Assembly (NCBI GenBank): GCA_963920705.1
Contig: CAWUCO010000167.1
Location: forward strand, 186,001-250,000
DNA from: Odiellus spinosus
Lineage: Eukaryota; Arthropoda; Arachnida; Opiliones; Phalangiidae
DNA: 64,000 nucleotides
Direction of reading: 5' to 3'
The translations under genes were made by a program, and so were the position numbers. Below, in pieces: positions 30,469 through 53,400 of the stretch. Every line of letters begins with the position of its first letter. Positions within the stretch are counted from its first letter, which is position 1. The notes under the pieces are model-generated. The model made no database searches. It was not told where the DNA came from and saw only the letters and a program-made list of their open reading frames with translations.

Positions 30469-33400
30469 CTCTTGTTTTTTAGATAGTCCAATATTTTCTC
30501 TTTCGATAGGTGTTGATTTTGTCTAAATCGCTTAAAAATCAAATGTTTTGTGTCCATTTGAATCCAATAATCTTAGATTTTGAAGTGTTTTTGCTTAATT
30601 TTAACCAATTTTATATTTGTCACGTTTTGGCAATTTAGACAAAACCAAAGTCATTCGAAAGAGCAATTAATGGATAGTCTAAATAATAAGAGTTTTCAAA
30701 AATCCGTTGAAAAACAAGAAAAATATGGCCAATTCAAGAAATCATACAATATCAAAATAGTCAAATTTCAGATTTTAAAAATTCGCTTTTTGATATTAGA
30801 TGTTTTTTGAATTGACCATATTTTCCATGTTTTTCAACGGATTTTCCAAAACTCTTGTTTTTTAGATAGACCAATATTTGTTCTTTCGATAGGTTTTAAT
30901 TTTGTCTAAATCGCTTAAAAATCAAATGTTTTGTGTCCATTTGAATCCAATAATCTTTGATTTTTAAGCGTTTTTGCTTAATTTTAAACAATTTTATATT
31001 TGTCACGTTTTGGCAATTTAGACAAAACCAAAGTCATTCGAAAGAGCAATTAATGGACAGTCTAAATAATAAGAGTTTTCAAAAATCCGTTGAAAAACAA
31101 GAAAAATATGACCAATTCAAGAAATCATACAATATCAAAATAGTCAAATTACAGATTTTAAAAATTCGCTTTTTGATATTAGATGTTTTTTGAATTGGCC
31201 ATATTTTCCATGTTTTTCAACGGATTTTCCAAAACTCTTGTTTTTTAGATAGACCAATATTTGCTCTTTCGAGTGGTCTTAATTTTATGTAAATCGCTTA
31301 AAAATCAAAAGTTTTGTGTCCATTTGAATCCAATAATCTTGGATTTTTAAGCGTTTTTGCTTAATTTTAACCAATTTTATATTTATCACGTTTTTTGCAA
31401 TTTAGACAAAACCAAAGTCATTCGAAAGAGCAATTAATGGACAGTCTAAATAATAAGAGTTTTCAAAAATCCGTTGAAAAACAAGAAAAATATGACCAAT
31501 TCAAGAAATCATACAATATCAAAATAGTCAAATTTCAGATTTTAAAAATTCGCTTTTTGATATTAGATGTTTTTTGAATTGGCCATATTTTCCATGTTTT
31601 TCAACGGATTTTCAAAAACTCTTGTTTTTTAGATAGTCCAATATTTTCTCTTTCGATAGGTGTTGATTTTGTCTAAATCGCTTAAAAATCAAATGTTTTG
31701 TGTCCATTTGAATCCAATAATCTTAGATTTTGAAGTGTTTTTGCTTAATTTTAACCAATTTTATATTTGTCACGTTTTGGCAATTTAGACAAAACCAAAG
31801 TCATTCGAAAGAGCAATTAATGGACAGTCTTAATAATAAGAGTTTTCAAAAATCCGTTGAAAAATAAGAAAAATATGGCCAATTCAAGAAATCATACAAT
31901 ATCAAAATAGTCAAATTTCAGATTTTAAAAATTCGCTTTTTGATATTAGATGTTTTTTGAATTGACCATATTTTCCATGTTTTTCCACGGATTTTTCAAA
32001 ACTCTTGTTTTTTAGATAGACCAATATTTGCTCTTTCGAGTGGTGTTAATTTTGTCTAAATCGCTTAAAAATCAAATGTTTTGTGTCCATTTGAATCCAA
32101 TAATCTTGGATTTTTAAGCGTTTTTGCTTAATTTTAACCAATTTTATATTTTTCACGTTTTGGCAATTTAGACAAAACCAAAGTCATTCGAAAGAGCAAT
32201 TAATGGACAGTCTAAATAATAAGAGTTTTCAAAAATCCGTTGAAAAACAAGAAAAATATGACCAATTCAAGAAATCATACAATATCAAAATAGTCAAATT
32301 TCAGATTTTAAAAATTCGCTTTTTGATATTAGATGTTTTTTGAATTGGCCATATTTTCCATGTTTTTCAACGGATTTTCAAAAACTCTTGTTTTTTAGAT
32401 AGTCCAATATTTTCTCTTTCGATAGGTGTTGATTTTGTCTAAATCGCTTAAAAATCTAATGTTTTGTGTCCATTTGAATCCAATAATCTTGGATTTTTAA
32501 GCGTTTTTGCTTAATTTTAACCAATTTTATATTTGTCACGTTTTGGCAATTTAGACAAAACCAAAGTCATTCGAAAGAGCAATTAATGGACAGTCTAAAT
32601 AATAAGAGTTTTCAAAAATCCGTTGAAAAACAAGAAAAATATGGCAAATTCAAGAAATCATATTATATCAAAATAGTCAAATTTCAGATTTTAAAAATTC
32701 GCTTTTTGATATTAGATGTTTTTTGAATTGACCATTTTTTCCATGTTTTTCAACGGATTTTCCAAAACTCTTGTTTTTTAGATAGACCAATATTTGTTCT
32801 TTCGATAGGTGTTAATTTTGTCTAAATTGCTTAAAAATCAAATGTTTTGTGTCCATTTGTATCCAATAATCTGGGATTTTTAAGCGTTTTTGCTTAATTT
32901 TAACCAATTTTATATTTGTCACGTTTGGCAATTTAGACAAAACCAAAGTCATTCGAAAGAGCAATTAATGGACAGTCTAAATAATAAGAGTTTTCAAAAA
33001 TCCGTTGAAAAACAAGAAAAATATCGCCAATTCAAGAAATCAAACAATATCAAAATAGTCAAATTTCAGATTTTAAAAATTCGCTTTTTGATATTAGATG
33101 TTTTTTGAATTGACCATATTTTCCATGTTTTTCCACGGATTTTCCAAAACTCTTGTTTTTTAGATAGACCAATATTTGCTCTTTCGAGTGGTGTTAATTT
33201 TGTCTAAATCGCTTAAAAATCAAATGTTTTGTGTCCATTTGAATCCAATAATCTTGGATTTTTAAGCGTTTTTGCTTAATTTTAACCAATTTTATATTTG
33301 TCACGTTTTGGCAATTTAGACAAAACCAAAGTCATTCGAAATAGCAATTAATGGATAGTCTAAATAATAAGAGTTTTCAAAAATCCGTTGAAAAACAAGA

Positions 33401-33959
33401 AAAATTTGGCAAATTCAAGAAATCATACAATATCAAAATAGTCAAATTTCAGATTTTAAAAATTCGCTTTTTGATATTAGATGTTTTTAGAATTGACCAT
33501 ATTTTCCATGTTTTTCAACGGATTTTCCAAAACTCTTGTTTTTTAGATAGTCCAAAATTTGCTCTTTCGATAGGTGTTAATTTTGTCTAAATTGCTTAAA
33601 AATCAAATGTTTTGTGTCCATTTGAATCCAATAATCTTTGATTTTTAAGCGTTTTTGCTTAATTTTAACCAATTTTATATTTTTCACGTTTTGGCAATTT
33701 AGACAAAACCAAAGTCATTCGAAAGAGCAATTAATGGACAGTCTAAATAATAAGAGTTTTCAAAAATCCGTTGAAAAACAAGAAAAATATGACCAATTCA
33801 AGAAATCATACAATATCAAAATAGTCAAATTTCAGATTTTAAAAATTCGCTTTTTGATATTAGATGTTTTTTGAATTGGCCATATTTTCCATGTTTTTCA
33901 ACGGATTTTCCAAAACTCTTGTTTTTTAGATAGTCCAATATTTTCTCTTTCGATAGGTG

Positions 33960-33968
33960 TTGATTTTG
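33960..33968. repeat. Target-site duplication, left of foldback copy 1
   Basis: TTGATTTTG lies directly before the element and again directly after it. Uninterrupted monomers have GTGTTGATTTTGTCTAAATC with a single copy, so neighbouring repeats act as the empty site and show the duplication is exactly 9 bp. Confidence 0.9.
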
Positions 33969-34369
33969 AATTATGCCCATTAGCGCAGTTCCTATTTGCG
34001 CAGTTCCCACTAGCGCAGTTCCCATTTGCGCAGTTTCCCATTAGCGCCATTCCCATTAGCGCAGTTCCAATTTGCGCAGTTTCCCATTTGCGCAGTTTCC
34101 TATTTGCGCCGTTCCCATTAGCGCCGTTCCCATTAGTGCAGTTTCCTATTAGCGCAACTTCCCATTAGCGCAGTTCCTACTAGCGCAGTTCCCACTAGCG
34201 CCATTTCCCATTTCCGCCGTTTTCCAGTAGCGCCGTTTCCCAGTAGCGCCGTTTCCCAGTAGCGCCGTTTCCCAGCAGCGCCGTTTCCCAGTAGCGCCGT
34301 TTCCCAGTAGCGCCGCTTCCCAGTAGCGCCGTTTCCCATTAGCGCTCTTTCCCTGTAGCGCCGCTTCCA
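33969..34369. repeat. Left inverted arm of foldback copy 1 (16-bp tandem repeats)
   Basis: About 25 degenerate ~16-bp units read CCCATTAGCGCAGTT in the outer part and CAGTAGCGCCGTTTCC in the inner part (34213-34369). The inner units are more alike, suggesting more recent expansion. The arm is the inverted counterpart of 35069-35500. Reading frames of up to 73 codons on the minus strand come from the repeat and are not genes. Confidence 0.9.
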
Positions 34370-34543
34370 AACAACTGCTATGTCCTAGATGCTAAATCCA
34401 AAAACCATGTTTTCCTGAATACCGTACATTTGATTAAAAATATTATAGTTAGTTCATTTACGAAACAATACCCTCTTTCCTAAATTTTTTTAACCAAACC
34501 TTCACAAGGGCTTCCTGTTTCAGAACATATTGTCTCAAAAGAA

Positions 34544-34580
34544 CTAACCTAACCTAACCTTACCTAACCTAACCTAAACC
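34544..34580. repeat. (CCTAA)n telomere-type tract in foldback copy 1
   Basis: About seven 5-bp units: CTAAC three times, one CTTAC, CTAAC twice, then CTAAACC. CCTAA/TTAGG is the canonical telomere repeat of many arthropods. The tract is short and internal, so it is not a telomere here. It could be a tail, a captured interstitial telomere fragment, or chance expansion. Confidence 0.75.
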
Positions 34581-34957
34581 AAAGAATCGCGTTCAAAAAC
34601 TATGTTTTCTAAAAGAGAGTTAACAAATGAGCATTACCTAAATGGCAAATTTGTAATTTAGTAGTACCACTTTGTCCTTTATTTTACCATAAAAAATAAC
34701 TTGACCCCCTTTATAATTAAATATGTAATTAAATCCGACGTAAAATTTACAAAACTGACCCACAACACGGAATACAGCAAAATCATGCAAAACTGAACAG
34801 AAACACGTACGCAAAAATAACCCTAAAACCTATTTCGTTTTTTTTCCAATTTTTTCTATATTATCTGTAACTGCTAACAACACTTAAAACTAAAATGAAC
34901 AACAATTATTATTAAAATTTACATGAGGAAAATAAATCGAAAACTCTAACATATCAT

Positions 34958-35030
34958 TTTCCGAAAGTATACTCGAACCTAGAATCTTCTGGCTAGATGC
35001 CGTCTATGCTAACCACTCCGCTACCGAATC
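34958..35030 (-). pseudogene. tRNA-derived sequence with Pol III A and B boxes, copy 1
   Basis: On the minus strand TAGCGGAGTGG (35023-35013) fits the tRNA A-box consensus and GGTTCGAGT (34979-34971) fits the start of the B box. They begin 44 bp apart, the spacing of positions 8 and 52 in a short-variable-arm tRNA. A possible anticodon stem ATCT/AGAT encloses a 7-nt loop. The acceptor halves (GATTCGG and TTCGGAA) do not pair, the T stem is broken, and the loop lacks the usual T at position 33. It is therefore a decayed tRNA or a tRNA-type SINE head, not a working tRNA gene. The stretch AGAAGATTC-AGGTTCGA resembles arginine tRNAs from memory. A TTTT run about 15 nt downstream (34943-34940) could end a Pol III transcript. 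Confidence 0.55.
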
Positions 35031-35068
35031 ACGGCAAATCATTTAAAAAAACGTTTATCTCCATATCA

Positions 35069-35500
35069 GAAACGGCGCAAATGGGAAACGGCGCGAATGG
35101 GAAACGGCGCTACTGGGAAACGGCGCTAAAAGGAAACGGCGCTAATGGGAAACTGCGCTAATGGGAAACTGTGCTAATGGGAAACGGCGCGAATGGGAAA
35201 TGGCGCTAGTGGGAAACCGCGCGAATGGGAAATGGCGCTAGTGGGAAACGGGGCGAATGGGAAACGGCGCTACAGGGAACTGCGCTAATAGGAACTGCGC
35301 TAATGGGAAATTGCGCTAATGGGAAACTGCGCAAATGGGGACGGCGCAAATGGGAACGGCGCTAATGGGAAACTGCCCTAATGGGAAATTGCGCTAATGG
35401 GAACGGCGCAAATGGGAATGGCGCTAATTGGAAAATGCGCTAATAGGAACTGCGCTAATGGGAACTGCGCTAATAGGAACGGCGCTAAAGGGCACATACC
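35069..35500. repeat. Right inverted arm of foldback copy 1 (16-bp tandem repeats)
   Basis: Units of the type GGGAAACGGCGCTAAT repeat in the opposite orientation to the left arm. Variants alternate between GGCGC, TGCGC, GCGAA and GCAAA. A single strand could fold the two arms into a hairpin of about 400 bp with bulges. No reading frame of interest is present. Confidence 0.9.
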
Positions 35501-35509
35501 TTGATTTTG
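35501..35509. repeat. Target-site duplication, right of foldback copy 1
   Basis: This is the second TTGATTTTG, followed by the normal monomer continuation GTCTAAATCGC. Confidence 0.9.
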
Positions 35510-36420
35510 TCTAAATCGCTTAAAAATCAAATGTTTTGTGTCCATTTGAATCCAATAATCTTAGATTTTGAAGTGTTTTTGCTTAATTTTAACCAATTTT
35601 ATATTTGTCACGTTTTGGCAATTTAGACAAAACCAAAGTCATTCGAAAGAGCCATTAATGGACAGTCTAAATAATAAGAGTTTTCAAAAATCCGTTGAAA
35701 AACAAGAAAAATATGGCCAATTCAAGAAATCATACAATATCAAAATAGTCAAATTTCAGATTTTAAAAATTCGCATTTTGATATTAGATGTTTTTGGAAT
35801 TGACCATATTTTCCATGTTTTTCAACGGATTTTCCAAAACTCTTGTTTTTTAGATAGTCCAATATTTGCTCTTTCGATAGGTGTTGATTTTGTCTAAATC
35901 GCTTAAAAATCAAATGTTTTGTGTCCATTTGAATCCAATAATCTTGGATTTTTAAGCGTTTTTGCTTAATTTTAACCAATTTTATATTTGTCACGTTTTG
36001 GCAATTTAGACAAAACCAAAGTCATTCGAAAGAGCAATTAATGGACAGTCTAAATAATAAGAGTTTTCAAAAATCCGTTGAAAAACAAGAAAAATATGGC
36101 CAATTCAAGAAATCATACAATATCAAAATAGTCAAATTTCAGATTTTAAAAATTCGCTTTTTGATATTAGATGTTTTTTGAATTGACCATATTTTCCATG
36201 TTTTTCAACGGATTTTCCAAAACTCTTGTTTTTTAGATAGACCAATATTTGTTCTTTCGATAGGTGTTAATTTTGTCTAAATCGCTTAAAAATCAAATGT
36301 TTTGTGTCCATTTGAATCCAATAATCTTTGATTTTTAAGCGTTTTTGCTTAATTTTAACAAATTTTATATTTGTCACGTTTTGGCAATTTAGACAAAACC
36401 AAAGTCATTCGAAAGAGCCT

Positions 36421-38710
36421 TTAATGGAGTCTAAATAATAAGAGTTTTCAAAAATCCGTTGAAAAACAAGAAAAATATGGCCAATTCAAGAAAACATATA
36501 ATATCAAAATAGTCAAATTTCAGATTTTAAAAATTCGCTTTTTGATATTAGATGTTTATGAATTGACCATATTTTACATGTTTTTCAACGGATTTTCCAA
36601 AACTCTTGTTTTTTAGATAGTCCAAAATTTGCTCTTTCGATAGGTGTTGATTTTGCGTAATCGCTTAAAAATCAAATGTTTTGTTTCCATTTGAATCCAA
36701 TAATCTTGGATTTTTAAGCGTTTTTGCTTAATTTTAACCAATTTTATATTTCTCACGTTTTGGCAATTTAGACAAAACCAAAGTCATTCGAAAGAGCAAT
36801 TAATGGACAGTCTAAATAATGAGAGTTTTCAAAAATCCGTTGAAAAACAAGAAAAATATGGCCAATTCAAGAAATCATACAATATCAAAATAGTCAAATT
36901 TCAGATTTTAAAAATTCGCTTTTTGATATTAGATGTTTTTTGAATTGACCATATTTTCCATGTTTTTCAACGGATTTTCCAAAACTCTTGTTTTTTAGAT
37001 AGTCCAATATTTGTTCTTTCGATAGGTGTTGATTTTGTCTAAATCGCTTCAAAATCAAATGTTTTTTGTCCATTTGAATCCAATAATCTTGGATTTTTAA
37101 GCGTTTTTGCTTAATTTTAACCAATTTTATATTTGTCACGTTTTGGCAATTTAGACAAAACCAAAGTCATTCGAAAGAGCAATTAATGGACAGTCTAAAT
37201 AATAAGAGTTTTCAAAAATCCGTTGAAAAACAAGAAAAGTATGGCCAATTCAAGAAATCATACAATATCAAAATAGTCAAATTTCAGATTTTAAAAATTC
37301 GCTTTTTGATATTAGATGTTTTTTGAATTGACCATATTTTCCATGTTTTTCAACGGATTTTCCAAAACTCTTGTTTTTTAGATAGACCAATATTTGTTCT
37401 TTCGATAGGTGTTAATTTTGTCTAAATCGCTTAAAAATCAAATGTTTTGTGTCCATTTGAATCCAATAATCTTTGATTTTTAAGCGTTTTTGCTTAATTT
37501 TAACCAATTTTATATTTGTCACGTTTAGGCAATTTAGACAAAACCAAAGTCATTCGAAAGAGCAATTAATGGAGTCTAAATAATAAGAGTTTTCAAAAAT
37601 CCGTTGAAAAACAAGAAAAATATGGCCAATTCAAGAAAACATATAATATCAAAATAGTCAAATTTCAGATTTTAAAAATTCGCTTTTTGATATTAGATGT
37701 TTATGAATTGACCATATTTTACATGTTTTTCAACGGATTTTCCAAAACTCTTGTTTTTTAGATAGTCCAAAATTTGCTCTTTCGATAGGTGTTGATTTTG
37801 CGTAATCGCTTAAAAATCAAATGTTTTGTTTCCATTTGAATCCAATAATCTTGGATTTTTAAGCGTTTTTGCTTAATTTTAACCAATTTTATATTTCTCA
37901 CGTTTTGGCAATTTAGACAAAACCAAAGTCATTCGAAAGAGCAATTAATGGACAGTCTAAATAATGAGAGTTTTCAAAAATCCGTTGAAAAACAAGAAAA
38001 ATATGGCCAATTCAAGAAATCATACAATATCAAAATAGTCAAATTTCAGATTTTAAAAATTCGCTTTTTGATATTAGATGTTTTTTGAATTGACCATATT
38101 TTCCATGTTTTTCAACGGATTTTCCAAAACTCTTGTTTTTTAGATAGTCCAATATTTGTTCTTTCGATAGGTGTTGATTTTGTCTAAATCGCTTCAAAAT
38201 CAAATGTTTTTTGTCCATTTGAATCCAATAATCTTGGATTTTTAAGCGTTTTTGCTTAATTTTAACCAATTTTATATTTGTCACGTTTTGGCAATTTAGA
38301 CAAAACCAAAGTCATTCGAAAGAGCAATTAATGGACAGTCTAAATAATAAGAGTTTTCAAAAATCCGTTGAAAAACAAGAAAAGTATGGCCAATTCAAGA
38401 AATCATACAATATCAAAATAGTCAAATTTCAGATTTTAAAAATTCGCTTTTTGATATTAGATGTTTTTTGAATTGACCATATTTTCCATGTTTTTCAACG
38501 GATTTTCCAAAACTCTTGTTTTTTAGATAGACCAATATTTGTTCTTTCGATAGGTGTTAATTTTGTCTAAATCGCTTAAAAATCAAATGTTTTGTGTCCA
38601 TTTGAATCCAATAATCTTTGATTTTTAAGCGTTTTTGCTTAATTTTAACCAATTTTATATTTGTCACGTTTAGGCAATTTAGACAAAACCAAAGTCATTC
38701 GAAAGAGCAA
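36421..38710. repeat. Higher-order repeat: two copies of a 3-monomer block (1,145 bp)
   Basis: About 36421-37565 recurs at about 37566-38710. The offset is 1,145 bp, which is 3 x 383 minus 4 because of the ATGGAGTCT monomer. Shared markers are GATGTTTATGAATTG with ATTTTACATG, CGTAATCGC, AATAATGAGAG, CGCTTCAAAATC and CACGTTTAGGC. The pair is copied again at about 51328-53617 as part of the large duplication. Confidence 0.85.
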
Positions 38711-41700
38711 TTAATGGAGTCTAAATAATAAGAGTTTTCAAAAATCCGTTGAAAAACAAGAAAAATATGGCCAATTCAAGAAAACATATAATATCAAAAT
38801 AGTCAAATTTCAGATTTTAAAAATTCGCTTTTTGATATTAGATGTTTATGAATTGACCATATTTTCCATGTTTTTCAACGGATTTTCCAAAACTCTTGTT
38901 TTTTAGATAGACCAATATTTGTTCTTTCGATAGGTGTTAATTTTGTCTAAATCGCTTAAAAATCAAATGTTTTGTGTCCATTTGAATCCAATAATCTTTG
39001 ATTTTTAAGCGTTTTTGCTTAATTTTAACCAATTTTATATTTGTCACGTTTTGGCAATTAGACAAAAACCAAAGTCATTCGAAAGAGCAATTAATGAACA
39101 GTCTTAATAATAAGAGTTTTCAAAAATCCGTTGAAAAACAAGAAAAATATGGCCAATTCAAGAAATCATATAATATCAAAATAGTCAAATTTCAGATTTT
39201 AAAAATTCGCTTTTTGATATTAGATGTTTTTTGAATTGACCATATTTTCCATGTTTTTCAACGGATTTTCCAAAACTCTTGTTTTTTAGATAGACCAATA
39301 TTTGTTCTTTCGATAGGTGTTAATTTTGTCTAAATCGCTTAAAAATCAAATGTTTTGTGTCCATTTGAATCCAATAATCTTTGATTTTTAAGCGTTTTTG
39401 CTTAATTTTAACCAATTTTATATTTGTCACGTTTTGGCAATTTAGACAAAACCAAAGTCATTCGAAAGAGCAATTAATGGAGTCTAAATAATAAGAGTTT
39501 TCAAAAATCCGTTGAAAAACAAGAAAAATATGGCCAATTCAAGAAATCATACAATATCAAAATAGTCAAATTTCAGATTTTAAAAATTCGCTTTTTGATA
39601 TTAGATGTTTTTTGAATTGACCATATTTTCCATGTTTTTCAACGGATTTTCCAAAACTCTTGTTTTTTAGATAGACCAATATTTGTTCTTTCGATAGAAG
39701 TTAATTTTGTCTAAATCGCTTAAAAATCAAATGTTTTGTGTCCATTTGAATCCAATAATCTTTGATTTTTAAGCGTTTTTGCTTAATTTTAACCAATTTT
39801 ATATTTGTCACGTTTTGGCAATTTAGACAAAAACCAAAGTCATTCGAAAGAGCAATTAATGAACAGTCCAAATAATAAGAGTTTTCAAAAATCCGTTGAA
39901 AAACAAGAAAAATATGGCCAATTCAAGAAATCATATAATATCAAAATAGTCAAATTTCAGATTTTAAAAATTCGCTTTTTGATATTAGATGTTTATGAAT
40001 TGACCATATTTTCCATGTTTTTCAACGGATTTTCCAAAACTCTTGTTTTTTAGATAGTCCAATATTTGCTCTTTCGATAGGTGTTGATTTTGTCTAAATC
40101 GCTTAAAAATCAAATGTTTTGTGTCCATTTGTATCCAATAATCTTGGATTTTTAAGCGTTTTTGCTTAATTTTAACTAATTTTATATTTGTCACGTTTTG
40201 GCAATTTAGACAAAACCAAAGTCATTCGAAAGAGCCTTTAATGGAGTCTAAATAATAAGAGTTTTCAAAAATCTGTTGAAAAACAAGAAAAATATGGCCA
40301 ATTCAAGAAAACATATAATATCAAAATAGTCAAATTTCAGATTTTAAAAATTCGCTTTTTGATATTAGATGTTTATGAATTGACCATATTTTACATGTTT
40401 TTCAACGGATTTTCCAAAACTCTTGTTTTTTAGATAGTCCAAAATTTGCTCTTTCGATAGGTGTTGATTTTGCGTAATCGCTTAAAAATCAAATGTTTTG
40501 TTTCCATTTGAATCCAATAATCTTTGATTTTTAAGCGTTTTTGCTTAATTTTAACCAATTTTATATTTGTCACGTTTTGGCAATTTAGACAAAACCAAAG
40601 TCATTCGAAAGAGCAATTAATGGAGTCTAAATAATAAGAGTTTTCAAAAATCCGTTGAAAAACAAGAAAAATATGGCCAATTCAAGAAATCATACAATAT
40701 CAAAATAGTCAAATTTCAGATTTTAAAAATTCGCTTTTTGATATTAGATGTTTATGAATTGACCATATTTTCCATGTTTTTCAACGGATTTTAAAAAACT
40801 CTTGTTTTTTAGATAGTCCAATATTTGCTCTTTCGATAGGTGTTGATTTTGTCTAAATCGCTTAAAAATCAAATGTTTTGTGTCCATTTGTATCCAATAA
40901 TCTTGGATTTTTAAGCGTTTTTGCTTAATTTTAACTAATTTTATATTTGTCACGTTTTGGCAATTTAGACAAAACCAAAGTCATTCGAAAGAGCCTTTAA
41001 TGGAGTCTAAATAATAAGAGTTTTCAAAAATCTGTTGAAAAACAAGAAAAATATGGCCAATTCAAGAAAACATATAATATCAAAATAGTCAAATTTCAGA
41101 TTTTAAAAATTCGCTTTTTGATATTAGATGTTTATGAATTGACCATATTTTACATGTTTTTCAACGGATTTTCCAAAACTCTTGTTTTTTAGATAGTCCA
41201 AAATTTGCTCTTTCGATAGGTGTTGATTTTGCGTAATCGCTTAAAAATTAAATGTTTTGTTTCCATTTGAATCCAATAATCTTGGATTTTTAAGCGTTTT
41301 TGCTTAATTTTAACCAATTTTATATTTCTCACGTTTTGGCAATTTAGACAAAACCAAAGTCATTCGAAAGAGCAATTAATGGACAGTCTAAATAATGAGA
41401 GTTTTCAAAAATCCGTTGAAAAACAAGAAAAATATGGCCAATTCAAGAAATCATACAATATCAAAATAGTCAAATTTCAGATTTTAAAAATTCGCTTTTT
41501 GATATTAGATGTTTTTTGAATTGACCATATTTTCCATGTTTTTCAACGGATTTTCCAAAACTCTTGTTTTTTAGATAGTCCAATATTTGTTCTTTCGATA
41601 GGTGTTGATTTTGTCTAAATCGCTTCAAAATCAAATGTTTTTTGTCCATTTGAATCCAATAATCTTGGATTTTTAAGCGTTTTTGCTTAATTTTAACCAA

Positions 41701-44700
41701 TTTTATATTTGTCACGTTTAGGCAATTTAGACAAAACCAAAGTCATTCGAAAGAGCAATTAATGGAGTCTAAATAATAAGAGTTTTCAAAAATCCGTTGA
41801 AAAACAAGAAAAATATGGCCAATTCAAGAAAACATATAATATCAAAATAGTCAAATTTCAGATTTTAAAAATTCGCTTTTTGATATTAGATGTTTATGAA
41901 TTGACCATATTTTCCATGTTTTTCAACGGATTTTCCAAAACTCTTGTTTTTTAGATAGTCCAATATTTGCTCTTTCGATAGGTGTTGATTTTGTCTAAAT
42001 CGCTTAAAAATCAAATGTTTTGTGTCCATTTGTATCCAATAATCTTGGATTTTTAAGCGTTTTTGCTTAATTTTAACCAATTTTATATTTGTCACGTTTT
42101 GGCAATTTAGACAAAACCAAAGTCATTCGAAAGAGCCTTTAATGGAGTCTAAATAATAAGAGTTTTCAAAAATCCGTTGAAAAACAAGAAAAATATGGCC
42201 AATTCAAGAAAACAGATAATATCAAAATAGTCAAATTTCAGATTTTAAAAATTCGCTTTTTGATATTAGATGTTTATGAATTGACCATATTTTACATGTT
42301 TTTCAACGGATTTTCCAAAACTCTTGTTTTTTAGATAGTCCAAAATTTGCTCTTTCGATAGGTGTTGATTTTGCGTAATCGCTTAAAAATCAAACGTTTT
42401 GTTTCCATTTGAATCCAATAATCTTGGATTTTTAAGCGTTTTTGCTTAATTTTAACCAATTTTATATTTCTCACGTTTTGGCAATTTAGACAAAACCAAA
42501 GTCATTCGAAAGAGCAATTAATGGACAGTCTAAATAATGAGAGTTTTCAAAAATCCGTTGAAAAACAAGAAAAATATGGCCAATTCAAGAAATCATACAA
42601 TATCAAAATAGTCAAATTTCAGATTTTAAAAATTCGCTTTTTGATATTAGATGTTTTTTGAATTGACCATATTTTCCATGTTTTTCAACGGATTTTCCAA
42701 AACTCTTGTTTTTTAGATAGACCAATATTTGTTCTTTCGATAGGTGTTAATTTTGTCTAAATCGCTTAAAAATCAAATGTTTTGTGTCCATTTGAATCCA
42801 ATAATCTTTGATTTTTAAGCGTTTTTGCTTAATTTTAACCAATTTTATATTTGTCACGTTTAGGCAATTTAGACAAAACCAAAGTCATTCGAAAGAGCAA
42901 TTAATGGAGTCTAAATAATAAGAGTTTTCAAAAATCCGTTGAAAAACAAGAAAAATATGGCCAATTCAAGAAAACATATAATATCAAAATAGTCAAATTT
43001 CAGATTTTAAAAATTCGCTTTTTGATATTAGATGTTTATGAATTGACCATATTTTCCATGTTTTTCAACGGATTTTCCAAAACTCTTGTTTTTTAGATAG
43101 TCCAATATTTGCTCTTTCGATAGGTGTTGATTTTGTCTAAATCGCTTAAAAATCAAATGTTTTGTGTCCATTTGTATCCAATAATCTTGGATTTTTAAGC
43201 GTTTTTGCTTAATTTTAACCAATTTTATATTTGTCACGTTTTGGCAATTTAGACAAAACCAAAGTCATTCGAAAGAGCAATTAATGGACAGTCTAAATAA
43301 TAAGAGTTTTCAAAAATCCGTTGAAAAACAAGAAAAATATGGCCAATTCAAGAAATCATACAATATCAAAATAGTCAAATTTCAAATTTTAAAAATTCGC
43401 TTTTTGATATTAGATGTTTTTAGAATTGACCATATTTTCCATGTTTTTCAACGGATTTTCCAAAACTCTTGTTTTTTAGATAGTCCAAAATTTGCTCTTT
43501 CGATAGGTGTTGATTTTGCGAAATCGCTTAAAAATCAAATGTTTTGTTTCCATTTGAATCCAATAATCTTGGATTTTTAAGCGTTTTTGCTTAATTTTAA
43601 CCAATTTTATATTTGTCACGTTTTGGCAATTTAGACAAAACGAAAGTCATTCGAAAGAGCAATTAATGGACAGTCTAAATAATGAGAGTTTTCAAAAATC
43701 CGTTGAAAAACAAGAAAAATATGGCCAATTCAAGAAATCATACAATATCAAAATAGTCAAATTTCAGATTTTAAAAATTCGCTTTTTGATATTAGATGTT
43801 TTTTGAATTGACCATATTTTCCATGTTTTTCAACGGATTTTCCAAAACTCTTGTTTTTTAGATAGTACAATATTTGTTCTTTCGATAGGTGTTGATTTTG
43901 TCTAAATCGCTTAAAAATCAAATGTTTTGTGTCCATTTGAATCAAATAATCTTGGATTTTTAAGCGTTTTTGCTTAATTTTAACCAATTTTATATTTGTC
44001 ACGTTTTGGCAATTAGACAAAAACCAAAGTCATTCGAAAGAGCAATTAATGAACAGTCTTAATAATAAGAGTTTTCAAAAATCCGTTGAAAAACAAGAAA
44101 AATATGGCCAATTCAAGAAATCATATAATATCAAAATAGTCAAATTTCAGATTTTAAAAATTCGCTTTTTGATATTAGATGTTTTTTGAATTGACCATAT
44201 TTTCCATGTTTTTCAAAGGATTTTCCAAAACTCTTGTTTTTTAGATAGACCAATATTTGTTCTTTCGATAGGTGTTAATTTTGTCTAAATCGCTTAAAAA
44301 TCAAATGTTTTGTGTCCATTTGAATCCAATAATCTTTGATTTTTAAGCGTTTTTGCTTAATTTTAACCAATTTTATATTTGTCACGTTTTGGCAATTTAG
44401 ACAAAACCAAAGTCATTCGAAAGAGCAATTAATGGACAGTCTAAATAATAAGAGTTTTCAAAAATCCGTTGAAAAACAAGAAAAATATGGCCAATTCAAG
44501 AAATCATACAATATCAAAATAGTCAAATTTCAGATTTTAAAAATTCGCTTTTTGATATTAGATGTTTTTTGAATTGACCATATTTTCCATGTTTTTCAAC
44601 GGATTTTCCAAAACTCTTGTTTTTTAGATAGTCCAATATTTGTTCTTTCGATAGGTGTTGATTTTGTCTAAATCGCTTAAAAATCAAATGTTTTGTGTCC

Positions 44701-46867
44701 ATTTGAATCCAATAATCTTTGATTTTTAAGCGTTTTTGCTTAATTTTAACCAATTTTATATTTGTCACGTTTTGGCAATTTAGACAAAACCAAAGTCATT
44801 CGAAAGAGCAATTAATGGAGTCTAAATAATAAGAGTTTTCAAAAATCCGTTGAAAAACAAGAAAAATATGGCCAATTCAAGAAATCATACAATATCAAAA
44901 TAGTCAAATTTCAGATTTTAAAAATTCGCTTTTTGATATTAGATGTTTTTTGAATTGACCATATTTTCCATGTTTTTCAACGGATTTTCCAAAACTCTTG
45001 TTTTTTAGATAGTCCAATATTTCCTCTTTCGGTAGGTGTTGATTTTGTCTAAATCGCTTAAAAATCAAATGTTTTGTGTCCATTTGAATCCAATAATCTT
45101 GCATTTTTAAGCGTTTTTGCTTAATTTTAACCAATTTTATATTTGTCACGTTTTGGCAATTAGACAAAAACCAAAGTCATTCGAAAGAGCAATTAATGAA
45201 CAGTCTTAATAATAAGAGTTTTCAAAAATCCGTTGAAAAACAAGAAAAATATGGCCAATTCAAGAAATCATATAATATCAAAATAGTCAAATTTCAGATT
45301 TTAAAAATTCGCTTTTTGATATTAGATGTTTTTTGAATTGACCATATTTTCCATGTTTTTCAACGGATTTTCCAAAACTCTTGTTTTTTAGATAGACCAA
45401 TATTTGTTCTTTCGATAGGTGTTAATTTTGTCTAAATCGCTTAAAAATCAAATGTTTTGTGTCCATTTGAATCCAATAATCTTTGATTTTTAAGCGTTTT
45501 TGCTTAATTTTAACCAATTTTATATTTGTCACGTTTTGGCAATTTAGACAAAACCAAAGTCATTCGAAAGAGCAATTAATGGACAGTCTAAATAATAAGA
45601 GTTTTCAAAAATCCGTTGAAAAACAAGAAAAATATGGCCAATTCAAGAAATCATATAATATCAAAATAGTCAAATTTCAGATTTTAAAAATTCGCTTTTT
45701 GATATTAGATGTTTTTTGAATTGACCATTTTTTCCATGTTTTTCAACGGATTTTCCAAAACTCTTGTTTTTTAGATAGACCAATATTTGTTCTTTCGATA
45801 GGTGTTAATTTTGTCTAAATTGCTTAAAAATCAAATGTTTTGTGTCCATTTGTATCCAATAATCTGGGATTTTTAAGCGTTTTTGCTTAATTTTAACCAA
45901 TTTTATATTTGTCACGTTTTAGGAATTTAGACAAAACCAAAGTCATTCGAAAGAGCAATTAATGGACAGTCTAAATAATAAGAGTTTTCAAAAATCCGTT
46001 GAAAAACAAGAAAAATATGGCCAATTCAAGAAATCATACAATATCAAAATAGTCAAATTTCAGATTTTAAAAATTCGCCTTTTGATATTAGATGTTTTTA
46101 GAATTGACCATATTTTCCATGTTTTTCAACGGATTTTCCAAAACTCTTGTTTTTTAGATAGTCCAAAATTTGCTCTTTCGATAGGTGTTGATTTTGCGTA
46201 ATCGCTTAAAAATCAAATGTTTTGTTTCCATTTGAATCCAATAATCTTGGATTTTTAAGCGTTTTTGCTTAATTTTAACCAATTTTATATTTGTCACGTT
46301 TTGGCAATTTAGACAAAACCAAAGTCATTCGAAAGAGCAATTAATGGACAGTCTAAATAATAAGAGTTTTCAAAAATCCGTTGAAAAACAAGAAAAATAT
46401 GACCAATTCAAGAAATCATACAATATCAAAATAGTCAAATTTCAGATTTTAAAAATTCGCTTTTTGATATTAGATGTTTTTTGAATTGACCATATTTTCC
46501 ATGTTTTTCAACGGATTTTCCAAAACTATTGTTTTTTAGATAGTCCAATATTTTCTCTTTCGATAGGTGTTGATTTTGTCTAAATCGCTTAAAAATCAAA
46601 TGTTTTGTGTCCATTTGAATAAAATAATCATAGATTTTGAAGTGTTTTTGCTTAATTTTAACCAATTTTATATTTGTCACGTTTTGGCAATTTAGACAAA
46701 ACCAAAGTCATTCGAAAGAGCAATTAATGGACAGTCTTAATAATAAGAGTTTTCAAAAATCCGTTGAAAAACAAGAAAAATATGGCCAATTCAAGAAATC
46801 ATACAATATCAAAATAGTCATATTTCAGATTTTAAAAATTCGCTTTTTGATATTAGATTTTTTTTGA

Positions 46868-47791
46868 ATTGACCATATTTTCCATGTTTTTCAACGGATT
46901 TTCCAAAACTATTGTTTTTTAGATAGTCCAATATTTGCTCTTTCGATAGGTGTTGATTTTGTCTAAATCGCTTAAAAATCAAATGTTTTGTGTCCAATTG
47001 AATCCAATAATCTTGGATTTTTAAGCGTTTTTGCTTAATTTTAACCAATTTTATATTTGTCACGTTTGGCAATTTAGACAAAACCAAAGTCATTCGAAAG
47101 AGCAATTAATGGACAGTCTAAATAATAAGAGTTTTCAAAAATCCGTTGAAAAACAAGAAAAATATGACCAATTCAAGAAATCATACAATATCAAAATAGT
47201 CAAATTACAGATTTTAAAAATTCGCTTTTTGATATTAGATGTTTTTTGAATTGGCCATATTTTCCATGTTTTTCAACGGATTTTCCAAAACTCTTGTTTT
47301 TTAGATAGACCAATATTTGCTCTTTCGAGTGGTCTTAATTTTATGTAAATCGCTTAAAAATCAATAGTTTTGTGTCCATTTGAATCCAATAATCTTGGAT
47401 TTTTAAGCGTTTTTGCTTAATTTTAACCAATTTTATATTTATCACGTTTTTTGCAATTTAGACAAAACCAAAGTCATTCGAAAGAGCAATTAATGGACAG
47501 TCTAAATAATAAGAGTTTTCAAAAATCCGTTGAAAAACAAGAAAAATATGACCAATTCAAGAAATCATACAATATCAAAATAGTCAAATTTCAGATTTTA
47601 AAAATTCGCTTTTTGATATTAGATGTTTTTTGAATTGACCATATTTTCCATGTTTTTCAACGGATTTTCCAAAACTATTGTTTTTTAGATAGTCCAATAT
47701 TTGCTCTTTCGATAGGTGTTGATTTTGTCTAAATCGCTTAAAAATCAAATGTTTTGTGTCCAATTGAATCCAATAATCTTGGATTTTTAAG
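46868..47791. repeat. Local 2-monomer duplication at the left edge of large copy 2
   Basis: Sequence from about 46868 recurs 766 bp later at about 47634. Both carry CAAAACTATTG, GTGTCCAATTGAATCC and the shortened CACGTTTGGC. The second occurrence replaces the roughly 1.3 kb that large copy 1 has at 31578-32884. This marks a recombination junction between large copy 2 and the sequence just upstream of it. Confidence 0.7.
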
Positions 47792-48866
47792 CGTTTTTGC
47801 TTAATTTTAACCAATTTTATATTTGTCACGTTTGGCAATTTAGACAAAACCAAAGTCATTCGAAAGAGCAATTAATGGACAGTCTAAATAATAAGAGTTT
47901 TCAAAAATCCGTTGAAAAACAAGAAAAATATCGCCAATTCAAGAAATCAAACAATATCAAAATAGTCAAATTTCAGATTTTAAAAATTCGCTTTTTGATA
48001 TTAGATGTTTTTTGAATTGACCATATTTTCCATGTTTTTCCACGGATTTTCCAAAACTCTTGTTTTTTAGATAGACCAATATTTGCTCTTTCGAGTGGTG
48101 TTAATTTTGTCTAAATCGCTTAAAAATCAAATGTTTTGTGTCCATTTGAATCCAATAATCTTGGATTTTTAAGCGTTTTTGCTTAATTTTAACCAATTTT
48201 ATATTTGTCACGTTTTGGCAATTTAGACAAAACCAAAGTCATTCGAAATAGCAATTAATGGATAGTCTAAATAATAAGAGTTTTCAAAAATCCGTTGAAA
48301 AACAAGAAAAATTTGGCAAATTCAAGAAATCATACAATATCAAAATAGTCAAATTTCAGATTTTAAAAATTCGCTTTTTGATATTAGATGTTTTTAGAAT
48401 TGACCATATTTTCCATGTTTTTCAACGGATTTTCCAAAACTCTTGTTTTTTAGATAGTCCAAAATTTGCTCTTTCGATAGGTGTTAATTTTGTCTAAATT
48501 GCTTAAAAATCAAATGTTTTGTGTCCATTTGAATCCAATAATCTTTGATTTTTAAGCGTTTTTGCTTAATTTTAACCAATTTTATATTTTTCACGTTTTG
48601 GCAATTTAGACAAAACCAAAGTCATTCGAAAGAGCAATTAATGGACAGTCTAAATAATAAGAGTTTTCAAAAATCCGTTGAAAAACAAGAAAAATATGAC
48701 CAATTCAAGAAATCATACAATATCAAAATAGTCAAATTTCAGATTTTAAAAATTCGCTTTTTGATATTAGATGTTTTTTGAATTGGCCATATTTTCCATG
48801 TTTTTCAACGGATTTTCCAAAACTCTTGTTTTTTAGATAGTCCAATATTTTCTCTTTCGATAGGTG

Positions 48867-48875
48867 TTGATTTTG
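48867..48875. repeat. Target-site duplication, left of foldback copy 2
   Basis: TTGATTTTG directly before the element, matching the right-hand copy at 50408. Confidence 0.9.
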
Positions 48876-49276
48876 AATTATGCCCATTAGCGCAGTTCCT
48901 ATTTGCGCAGTTCCCACTAGCGCAGTTCCCATTTGCGCAGTTTCCCATTAGCGCCATTCCCATTAGCGCAGTTCCAATTTGCGCAGTTTCCCATTTGCGC
49001 AGTTTCCTATTTGCGCCGTTCCCATTAGCGCCGTTCCCATTAGTGCAGTTTCCTATTAGCGCAACTTCCCATTAGCGCAGTTCCTACTAGCGCAGTTCCC
49101 ACTAGCGCCATTTCCCATTTCCGCCGTTTTCCAGTAGCGCCGTTTCCCAGTAGCGCCGTTTCCCAGTAGCGCCGTTTCCCAGCAGCGCCGTTTCCCAGTA
49201 GCGCCGTTTCCCAGTAGCGCCGCTTCCCAGTAGCGCCGTTTCCCATTAGCGCTCTTTCCCTGTAGCGCCGCTTCCA
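48876..49276. repeat. Left inverted arm of foldback copy 2
   Basis: Tandem ~16-bp GC-rich units in the same order as in copy 1, with no unit gained or lost that I could see. That is notable for a tandem repeat and supports a recent origin of the duplication. Confidence 0.9.
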
Positions 49277-49450
49277 AACAACTGCTATGTCCTAGATGCT
49301 AAATCCAAAAACCATGTTTTCCTGAATACCGTACATTTGATTAAAAATATTATAGTTAGTTCATTTACGAAACAATACCCTCTTTCCTAAATTTTTTTAA
49401 CCAAACCTTCACAAGGGCTTCCTGTTTCAGAACATATTGTCTCAAAAGAA

Positions 49451-49487
49451 CTAACCTAACCTAACCTTACCTAACCTAACCTAAACC
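49451..49487. repeat. (CCTAA)n telomere-type tract in foldback copy 2
   Basis: The same seven-unit tract as in copy 1, including the single CTTAC variant unit. Confidence 0.75.
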
Positions 49488-49864
49488 AAAGAATCGCGTT
49501 CAAAAACTATGTTTTCTAAAAGAGAGTTAACAAATGAGCATTACCTAAATGGCAAATTTGTAATTTAGTAGTACCACTTTGTCCTTTATTTTACCATAAA
49601 AAATAACTTGACCCCCTTTATAATTAAATATGTAATTAAATCCGACGTAAAATTTACAAAACTGACCCACAACACGGAATACAGCAAAATCATGCAAAAC
49701 TGAACAGAAACACGTACGCAAAAATAACCCTAAAACCTATTTCGTTTTTTTTCCAATTTTTTCTATATTATCTGTAACTGCTAACAACACTTAAAACTAA
49801 AATGAACAACAATTATTATTAAAATTTACATGAGGAAAATAAATCGAAAACTCTAACATATCAT

Positions 49865-49937
49865 TTTCCGAAAGTATACTCGAACTTAGAATCTTCTGGC
49901 TAGATGCCGTCTATGCTAACCACTCCGCTACCGAATC
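49865..49937 (-). pseudogene. tRNA-derived sequence with Pol III boxes, copy 2
   Basis: The same tRNA-like sequence as in copy 1, but the B box now starts AGTTCGAGT because of the change at 49886. The first G of the B box is lost, which would be expected to weaken TFIIIC binding if the site worked at all. The A box is unchanged. Confidence 0.5.
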
Positions 49938-49975
49938 ACGGCAAATCATTTAAAAAAACGTTTATCTCCATATCA

Positions 49976-50407
49976 GAAACGGCGCAAATGGGAAACGGCG
50001 CGAATGGGAAACGGCGCTACTGGGAAACGGCGCTAAAAGGAAACGGCGCTAATGGGAAACTGCGCTAATGGGAAACTGTGCTAATGGGAAACGGCGCGAA
50101 TGGGAAATGGCGCTAGTGGGAAACCGCGCGAATGGGAAATGGCGCTAGTGGGAAACGGGGCGAATGGGAAACGGCGCTACAGGGAACTGCGCTAATAGGA
50201 ACTGCGCTAATGGGAAATTGCGCTAATGGGAAACTGCGCAAATGGGGACGGCGCAAATGGGAACGGCGCTAATGGGAAACTGCCCTAATGGGAAATTGCG
50301 CTAATGGGAACGGCGCAAATGGGAATGGCGCTAATTGGAAAATGCGCTAATAGGAACTGCGCTAATGGGAACTGCGCTAATAGGAACGGCGCTAAAGGGC
50401 ACATACC
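49976..50407. repeat. Right inverted arm of foldback copy 2
   Basis: Inverted ~16-bp units in the same order as the right arm of copy 1, ending GGGCACATACC directly before the target duplication. Confidence 0.9.
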
Positions 50408-50416
50408 TTGATTTTG
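50408..50416. repeat. Target-site duplication, right of foldback copy 2
   Basis: The second TTGATTTTG, continuing into GTCTAAATCGC of the interrupted monomer. Confidence 0.9.
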
Positions 50417-53400
50417 TCTAAATCGCTTAAAAATCAAATGTTTTGTGTCCATTTGAATCCAATAATCTTAGATTTTGAAGTGTTTTTGCTTAATTTTAAC
50501 CAATTTTATATTTGTCACGTTTTGGCAATTTAGACAAAACCAAAGTCATTCGAAAGAGCCATTAATGGACAGTCTAAATAATAAGAGTTTTCAAAAATCC
50601 GTTGAAAAACAAGAAAAATATGGCCAATTCAAGAAATCATACAATATCAAAATAGTCAAATTTCAGATTTTAAAAATTCGCATTTTGATATTAGATGTTT
50701 TTGGAATTGACCATATTTTCCATGTTTTTCAACGGATTTTCCAAAACTCTTGTTTTTTAGATAGTCCAATATTTGCTCTTTCGATAGGTGTTGATTTTGT
50801 CTAAATCGCTTAAAAATCAAATGTTTTGTGTCCATTTGAATCCAATAATCTTGGATTTTTAAGCGTTTTTGCTTAATTTTAACCAATTTTATATTTGTCA
50901 CGTTTTGGCAATTTAGACAAAACCAAAGTCATTCGAAAGAGCAATTAATGGACAGTCTAAATAATAAGAGTTTTCAAAAATCCGTTGAAAAACAAGAAAA
51001 ATATGGCCAATTCAAGAAATCATACAATATCAAAATAGTCAAATTTCAGATTTTAAAAATTCGCTTTTTGATATTAGATGTTTTTTGAATTGACCATATT
51101 TTCCATGTTTTTCAACGGATTTTCCAAAACTCTTGTTTTTTAGATAGACCAATATTTGTTCTTTCGATAGGTGTTAATTTTGTCTAAATCGCTTAAAAAT
51201 CAAATGTTTTGTGTCCATTTGAATCCAATAATCTTTGATTTTTAAGCGTTTTTGCTTAATTTTAACAAATTTTATATTTGTCACGTTTTGGCAATTTAGA
51301 CAAAACCAAAGTCATTCGAAAGAGCCTTTAATGGAGTCTAAATAATAAGAGTTTTCAAAAATCCGTTGAAAAACAAGAAAAATATGGCCAATTCAAGAAA
51401 ACATATAATATCAAAATAGTCAAATTTCAGATTTTAAAAATTCGCTTTTTGATATTAGATGTTTATGAATTGACCATATTTTACATGTTTTTCAACGGAT
51501 TTTCCAAAACTCTTGTTTTTTAGATAGTCCAAAATTTGCCCTTTCGATAGGTGTTGATTTTGCGTAATCGCTTAAAAATCAAATGTTTTGTTTCCATTTG
51601 AATCCAATAATCTTGGATTTTTAAGCGTTTTTGCTTAATTTTAACCAATTTTATATTTCTCACGTTTTGGCAATTTAGACAAAACCAAAGTCATTCGAAA
51701 GAGCAATTAATGGACAGTCTAAATAATGAGAGTTTTCAAAAATCCGTTGAAAAACAAGAAAAATATGGCCAATTCAAGAAATCATACAATATCAAAATAG
51801 TCAAATTTCAGATTTTAAAAATTCGCTTTTTGATATTAGATGTTTTTTGAATTGACCATATTTTCCATGTTTTTCAACGGATTTTCCAAAACTCTTGTTT
51901 TTTAGATAGTCCAATATTTGTTCTTTCGATAGGTGTTGATTTTGTCTAAATCGCTTCAAAATCAAATGTTTTTTGTCCATTTGAATCCAATAATCTTGGA
52001 TTTTTAAGCGTTTTTGCTTAATTTTAACCAATTTTATATTTGTCACGTTTTGGCAATTTAGACAAAACCAAAGTCATTCGAAAGAGCAATTAATGGACAG
52101 TCTAAATAATAAGAGTTTTCAAAAATCCGTTGAAAAACAAGAAAAGTATGGCCAATTCAAGAAATCATACAATATCAAAATAGTCAAATTTCAGATTTTA
52201 AAAATTCGCTTTTTGATATTAGATGTTTTTTGAATTGACCATATTTTCCATGTTTTTCAACGGATTTTCCAAAACTCTTGTTTTTTAGATAGACCAATAT
52301 TTGTTCTTTCGATAGGTGTTAATTTTGTCTAAATCGCTTAAAAATCAAATGTTTTGTGTCCATTTGAATCCAATAATCTTTGATTTTTAAGCGTTTTTGC
52401 TTAATTTTAACCAATTTTATATTTGTCACGTTTAGGCAATTTAGACAAAACCAAAGTCATTCGAAAGAGCAATTAATGGAGTCTAAATAATAAGAGTTTT
52501 CAAAAATCCGTTGAAAAACAAGAAAAATATGGCCAATTCAAGAAAACATATAATATCAAAATAGTCAAATTTCAGATTTTAAAAATTCGCTTTTTGATAT
52601 TAGATGTTTATGAATTGACCATATTTTACATGTTTTTCAACGGATTTTCCAAAACTCTTGTTTTTTAGATAGTCCAAAATTTGCTCTTTCGATAGGTGTT
52701 GATTTTGCGTAATCGCTTAAAAATCAAATGTTTTGTTTCCATTTGAATCCAATAATCTTGGATTTTTAAGCGTTTTTGCTTAATTTTAACCAATTTTATA
52801 TTTCTCACGTTTTGGCAATTTAGACAAAACCAAAGTCATTCGAAAGAGCAATTAATGGACAGTCTAAATAATGAGAGTTTTCAAAAATCCGTTGAAAAAC
52901 AAGAAAAATATGGCCAATTCAAGAAATCATACAATATCAAAATAGTCAAATTTCAGATTTTAAAAATTCGCTTTTTGATATTAGATGTTTTTTGAATTGA
53001 CCATATTTTCCATGTTTTTCAACGGATTTTCCAAAACTCTTGTTTTTTAGATAGTCCAATATTTGTTCTTTCGATAGGTGTTGATTTTGTCTAAATCGCT
53101 TCAAAATCAAATGTTTTTTGTCCATTTGAATCCAATAATCTTGGATTTTTAAGCGTTTTTGCTTAATTTTAACCAATTTTATATTTGTCACGTTTTGGCA
53201 ATTTAGACAAAACCAAAGTCATTCGAAAGAGCAATTAATGGACAGTCTAAATAATAAGAGTTTTCAAAAATCCGTTGAAAAACAAGAAAAGTATGGCCAA
53301 TTCAAGAAATCATACAATATCAAAATAGTCAAATTTCAGATTTTAAAAATTCGCTTTTTGATATTAGATGTTTTTTGAATTGACCATATTTTCCATGTTT

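Follow-up and report, generated by a model that had tools for sequence, protein, structure and literature searches.

A non-autonomous foldback element of the Mutator-like (MULE) superfamily lies in satellite DNA of Odiellus spinosus, within a stretch of 64,000 nucleotides referred to here as the window. It is flanked by an 8-bp target site duplication (TSD), belongs to a family dispersed in the host genome, has a coding relative, and was copied by duplication of the surrounding array. Very probably, the element was inserted once in a satellite monomer by the transposase of a relative acting in trans, with an 8-nt stagger, and the array was duplicated later. Judged by its sequence, it is a foldback MULE of Phantom/Muta make-up and ordinary in kind. 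The part worth following is a one-sided base change in the TSD, seen across the family at the sixth position (+6), which sets this family apart as a variant, beyond just another member. Feature coordinates are collected in Table 1.

Table 1. Features of the foldback element and its surroundings (window positions)
Feature	Position	Strand	Basis or remark
Left TSD copy, 8 bp, TTGATTTT	33960..33967	+	Satellite spacing and family sites
Foldback MULE, non-autonomous, 1533 bp, start GAATTATGCCC, end GGGCACATACC	33968..35500	+	Satellite spacing and 42 independent 8-bp insertions
Left terminal cap GAATTATG, differs from right cap	33968..33975	+	First base G in 40/42 sites
Left arm, 25 tandem units of 15-17 bp, core CC..TT.GCGC, outer units mixed 15/16, inner mostly 16	33976..34366	+
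Loop, no coding match, (TTAGG)n-like tract at 34544-34577	34367..35085	+
Right arm, 26 tandem units of 14-17 bp, inverted	35086..35492	-
Right terminal cap, read inward GGTATGTG	35493..35500	-
Right TSD copy TTGATTTT, position 6 unchanged here	35501..35508	+
Second copy of the same insertion, in duplicated stretch (offset 14907)	48875..50407	+	TSDs 48867-48874 and 50408-50415
First copy of duplicated satellite block, matches 47448-55152 (ungapped)	32541..40245	.

The 9-mer TTGATTTTG is present at 33960-33968 and again at 35501-35509, and occurs singly in the neighbouring satellite monomers. Satellite anchors across the insertion are 1924 bp apart, i.e., 383 + 1541, so the locus corresponds to one monomer plus the insert plus one duplication. 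The insertion into a satellite monomer proposed in the initial annotation is thus real, being attested both by the 9-mer and by the anchor spacing. From base composition, a 9-bp match at given ends would arise by chance with a probability of about 2e-5.

The arms are built from the unit CCCATTAGCGCMGTT(T). Inverted arms of 16-bp repeats had been described; the arms themselves are well founded, but their outer units mix 15 and 16 bp. In register, the arms are identical at 342 of 400 columns, and they are 86% complementary over 395 nt; Tandem Repeats Finder lets the right-arm array reach to 35069. Of the 16 outer units, 13 have the length of their in-register partner, a level equalled by 94 of 100000 shuffles, and the likeness of the outer units is 0.873 in register versus 0.74-0.82 out of register (0 of 20000 shuffles as good). 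In both respects, therefore, the outer arm resembles one old inverted repeat. Among the inner units, likeness is greater within one arm than between arms, as if each arm had been evened out separately. The predicted DNA hairpin pairs 351 of 400 left-arm bases with the right arm at -442.5 kcal/mol, compared with -137.6 kcal/mol when the right arm is turned round; 10 shuffles averaged -155.5. With its long inverted arms of short tandem repeats and its loop, the element has the make-up of a type 2 foldback. Ten short frames of the loop, scanned for coding remnants, gave no Pfam match above cut-off. A tRNA/SINE or RNA gene was considered and rejected, as the window is without tRNA and the stretch 33900-35600 matches nothing in Rfam at E 1; part of the loop compared with Rfam gave one chance match (E 3.6). 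By eye, the minus strand at 34950-35040 loosely resembles a decayed tRNA with A-box- and B-box-like words, and neither ARAGORN nor Rfam gives a tRNA match there. The telomere-like tract of the loop recurs in the second copy at 49451-49484 and would fit an arthropod host.

The host assembly (443 Mb, 286 contigs) holds at least 179 matches to the element, a count for which 40 of 1042 candidates were scored. Allowing up to 2 mismatches, 83 right ends are present, of which 31 are exact, versus 1 for a reversed control pattern. Loci were fetched in sets of 36, 40, 1 and 2, with 5 of the 83 right ends outside the fetched set. After merging of duplicated loci, 47 independent insertions with both ends were available, excluding L001-L008, which coincide with other loci or with the window, and loci without an end pair within the set mismatches. 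Where loci were duplicates of one another, the end pair whose TSD copies mismatched least represented the cluster; this rule drops L047 and L017 (mismatch at position 4) and biases against the +6 effect. Family elements range from 425 to 3838 bp, and their targets are AT-rich with a weak preference for G at the first and A at the seventh position. The longest (L046:164-4001, 3838 bp) has non-LTR retrotransposon-like frames between its arms, where an endonuclease domain reaches a best E of 1.1e-4, below cut-off; MULEs are known to capture foreign sequence, and this content is in keeping with that. Exact arm patterns found no match in the viral contigs or prokaryote genomes scanned, and a literature text search with sequence words of the arms and the satellite returned no paper; it is possible that the family is undescribed.

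The initial annotation had also related the element to Mutator-like transposases and called for a relative that carries one. This relationship is borne out by a 3531-bp relative (C1:9374109-9377639) that has both family ends, ATGTATAT on either side, and arms matching those of the window element at 89% (left) and 90% (right), the first 12 unit lengths of the right arm being the same. It encodes a MULE domain (PF10551, 30.0 bits, cut-off 27.6, E 7.4e-7, positions 48-97 of 99) and, upstream on the same strand, a FLYWCH zinc finger (PF04500, 26.3 bits, cut-off 23.6, E 8.4e-6). Both domains are on the minus strand, but the protein is in pieces in different frames, owing to introns or decay. Among the 72 MULE-domain matches listed for the genome, the one at C1:9375339-9375488 adjoins family copy L035; none of the others listed is near the family's 83 right ends. 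A MULE-type DDE domain in a same-ended element and a TSD within 8-11 bp are the marks of the MULE superfamily, and a FLYWCH finger together with the MULE domain is that of the Phantom/Muta group; the family presents both sets of features.

The window consists almost entirely of a 383-bp satellite, each monomer of which is made of two imperfect inverted halves; among the 62 monomers that are exactly 383 bp long, mean identity to the consensus is 98%. The satellite pattern found no match in the viral contigs scanned, and a literature search for a 383-bp satellite listed one plant report. Between block 32874-40235 and its duplicate there are 2 differences in 7362 bp, one of them inside the element, and the second element copy differs from the first by 1 mismatch in 1532 bp with the same flanks. 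A further stretch, 40476-44789, matches 56912-61225. A third copy (C168:362802-364350), 143 kb further along the contig, occupies the same insertion point in more diverged flanks. The two window copies are near-identical and have common flanks, and we read all three as one insertion amplified with the satellite array. The second copy, a marker of array growth, had been passed over in the initial annotation. Within the second block, about four monomers are doubled again (54899-56677 versus 56424-58202, offset 1525), which points to repeated unequal exchange. At 17 anchored satellite sites (855, 6599, 12233, 28208 and others), the sequence right after TTGATTTTG varies, reading CGTAATCG, GATAATCG or CGAAATCG and not TCTAAAT; these variable positions adjoin the base at which the element is inserted and are possible excision footprints. 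On another contig, an independent family insertion (L024, G000:C261:4669784-4672062) lies in the same satellite family.

Alternative readings of the insertion differ in how they fare against these data. The duplication had been annotated as 9 bp, with an element starting with A at 33969. The 9-mer is indeed exactly duplicated here, three family insertions (L018, L038 and L073) resemble 9-bp duplications, and Muta1 has TSDs of both 8 and 9 bp (PMC5225508). However, the first element base, before AATTATG, is G at 40 of the 42 independent 8-bp insertions, while only 14 of these have G after the right TSD. The G at 33968 is therefore the element's own, and a 9-bp TSD is very unlikely: the doubled 9-mer is an 8-bp TSD plus the element's G, and the left end lies at 33968. 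The duplication lengths of other copies and the position of the ends, both put forward in the initial annotation as ways to refute its claim, speak against it: the lengths are 8 bp at 42 of 47 independent sites (26 perfect) and 9 bp at 3, with no TSD at 2. The duplication length could not be fixed from a single insertion, in which a chance G turned 8 bp into an apparent 9. The ends 33969-35500 give 1532 bp, an exact multiple of the monomer (4 x 383); as the corrected length is 1533, this is taken as a coincidence. An origin from another superfamily with 8-bp TSDs (Merlin, P/Galileo or hAT) rather than from MULEs is highly improbable. Foldback arms also flank P-type transposases (Galileo, cited in PMC3169594) and Merlin TSDs are of 8-9 bp (PMC8101967), but the same ends and arms enclose MULE and FLYWCH domains, and the left end of the element reads GAATT, not the GG expected of Merlin, with GG only at the right end. 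Finally, next to no credence can be given to separate, site-specific insertions as the source of the two window copies: both are at the same base of the monomer, yet their flanks are common over 7.4 kb with the 2 differences given above, and other family copies lie in unlike sequences with only weak target preference.

A single MULE insertion followed by array duplication thus remains the preferred reading. The FLYWCH/MULE transposase of a relative would most likely act in trans, binding the terminal caps and, putatively, the 15/16-bp arm units. It would cut the element out and join it to a target opened by a presumed 5′ staggered cut of 8 nt, and gap filling would then produce the 8-bp duplication TTGATTTT. 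Later duplication of the satellite array would have copied the insertion. The fragmented protein of the coding relative, the 3 of 47 sites that are 9-bp-like and the 2 of 47 without TSD weigh against this scheme.

The TSDs of the family also differ from one another in a patterned way. Mismatches between the two copies occur at position 6 in 12 of the 42 8-bp sites, versus 7 at the other seven positions together, and 0 of 20000 draws reach 12 under random placement. All 12 sites have G in the right copy and A, C or T in the left copy; indeed, where the left base is not G (37 8-bp sites), it has become G in 12 and no other base in any. Adding the three 9-bp sites, of which one is changed and two are not, brings the tally to 13 changed among 40 informative insertions, 6 nt outside the right end. 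Right position 6 is G in 17 of 42 sites, compared with 19.6% in the flanks (P 0.0016), while left position 6, with 5 of 42, does not differ from the flanks. As the G excess is found at right position 6 only, the right TSD copy is probably the altered one. In L018, which has a 9-bp TSD, the changed base is again the sixth from the right end; on this one site, the distance of the change seems to be set from the right end. The change affects 9 of 21 insertions of the window's own end-type and 3 of 16 of the other. The window insertion is unchanged, with T at position 6, as are the coding relative, L086 and L087. These figures are from the final set of 42 8-bp sites and 12 changes, in which L018 is kept apart as 9 bp; an earlier set, in which L018 was taken as an 8-bp site and L011 was absent, had 12 changes in 39 sites. 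The mirror-image change at the left end, to C at left position 3, was seen in 1 of 35 and is unconvincing. As a cause, microhomology to the element's GA start is weak: the changed sites have A at position 7 in 9 of 12 cases, the unchanged sites in 9 of 22 (P 0.08, 39-site set).

The +6 G could also be due to later drift, to satellite-type variation or to a sequencing artefact, i.e., to processes other than transposition. Empty sites exist for few changed loci and are weakly informative. In L024, the left copy matches the satellite and G is found in 0 of 147 window monomers, but monomers with the G variant of this site occur at 8 other genome places, so that L024 says little about the direction of change. 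For L027, position 6 is C in the left copy and in two neighbouring repeat units, which are only 77-81% alike, and for L061 there is one 79% match with T, as in the left copy; for the remaining changed sites, the sequences examined contained no empty-site match. In addition, L047, a duplicate outside the count, shows the opposite pair (left G, right A), and both TSD copies carry G in its sister loci L050 and L051. Against such processes, 12 of the 19 TSD mismatches fall at one position, with the same base on the same side, beyond all 20000 random draws; the duplicated loci L014/L015 and L020/L021 each keep an identical change; and the 9-bp case L018 is changed at +6 too. Altogether, a cause other than transposition appears rather unlikely, although it keeps appreciable weight.

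It is quite possible, if still on the doubtful side, that this MULE mutates the site where it lands, turning the +6 base into G whatever it was before in about four in ten insertions of the window's end-type. Our best guess as to the cause is the misinsertion of C during gap repair. As a rule, DDE transposases join 3′ ends to the target with 5′ overhangs, and Rev1 is a protein-templated dCMP transferase. With such joining, the right TSD copy would keep the old top strand and gain a new bottom strand, so that G on top would imply that C entered the new strand regardless of the template base. The +6 template base may be flipped or blocked by the still-bound transposase and bypassed by a Rev1-type dCMP transferase, leaving C in the newly filled strand; replication would then sort out the mismatch, limiting the visible rate to near 50%. 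Severe target distortion with flipping has been described in the Mos1 structure (PMC5481204). The 1/35 mirror effect at the left end, the lower rate in the other end-type, the opposite pair of L047, the weak empty-site support and the G-variant monomers for the L024 site are points against this repair reading. A TSD is usually assumed to be two equal copies drifting at random. If the repair reading were true, the two copies would be unequal in a predictable way, and a one-sided change of fixed position and base would record the repair of the insertion gap in a form readable from an assembly. Such a record would make the post-integration step of MULEs accessible even where there is no purified system, and would bias transposable element software that requires perfect duplications. 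Literature text searches on position-specific TSD changes gave nothing on point, which is no proof of absence, and the available text of PMC5225508, where perfect TSDs only are counted, makes no mention of a +6 change for Muta1 or Muta5.

Foldback MULEs of this architecture are already known, namely Muta1, Muta5 and Tm1. Muta1 and Muta5 are MULEs of Aedes aegypti, where FLYWCH is predicted in 13 of 14 Muta families (PMC5225508). They resemble the present family in their 8- or 9-bp TSDs, in the pairing of FLYWCH with a DDE transposase, in terminal inverted repeats (TIRs) that combine a short terminal motif (Muta1, 10 bp; Muta5, 8 bp) with tandem units (of 12 bp with a 3-4 bp spacer, or of 15 bp), and in the many non-autonomous derivatives, which vary in interior and in number of units (PMC5225508). 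Muta1, which has been called a type 2 foldback, differs in having arms of 145 bp with 9 units, versus about 400 bp and 25-26 units here, and a terminal motif that is an imperfect palindrome, whereas two differing caps are found here (PMC5225508). Tm1 is a Mutator/foldback family of root-knot nematodes whose member Tm1-A has FLYWCH and is filed as Phantom (PMC3169594). It shares with the present family unlike short terminal motifs outside the inverted repeat, short arm units (about 14 bp in Tm1), a FLYWCH/MULE (Phantom-type) coding member and short MITE-like members. However, its TSDs are most often 9 bp (8-10), and its motifs CGGTTAA, CCTACCC and CGATTCAGTATCCGC contrast with the caps GAATTATG/GGTATGTG and the arm unit here (PMC3169594). 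Rehavkus, from arthropods and annelids, comprises MULE relatives that likewise combine minisatellite and TIRs, with a satellite-like repeat in the inverted termini in Tribolium, but it has a 9-bp TSD and a PHD finger (PMC6446971, PMC10218199). Membership in Rehavkus was rejected, as the TSD here is 8 bp in 42 of 47 insertions and the coding relative has FLYWCH and no PHD match in the four pieces scanned. Tetris, a foldback of Drosophila virilis, is likewise non-coding, with arm tandem repeats, a link to satellite DNA and TSDs of 8-10 bp; unlike the family described here, its units are of 220 bp and its arm repeats seeded a satellite, while in Odiellus spinosus the satellite received the element (PMC4079207).
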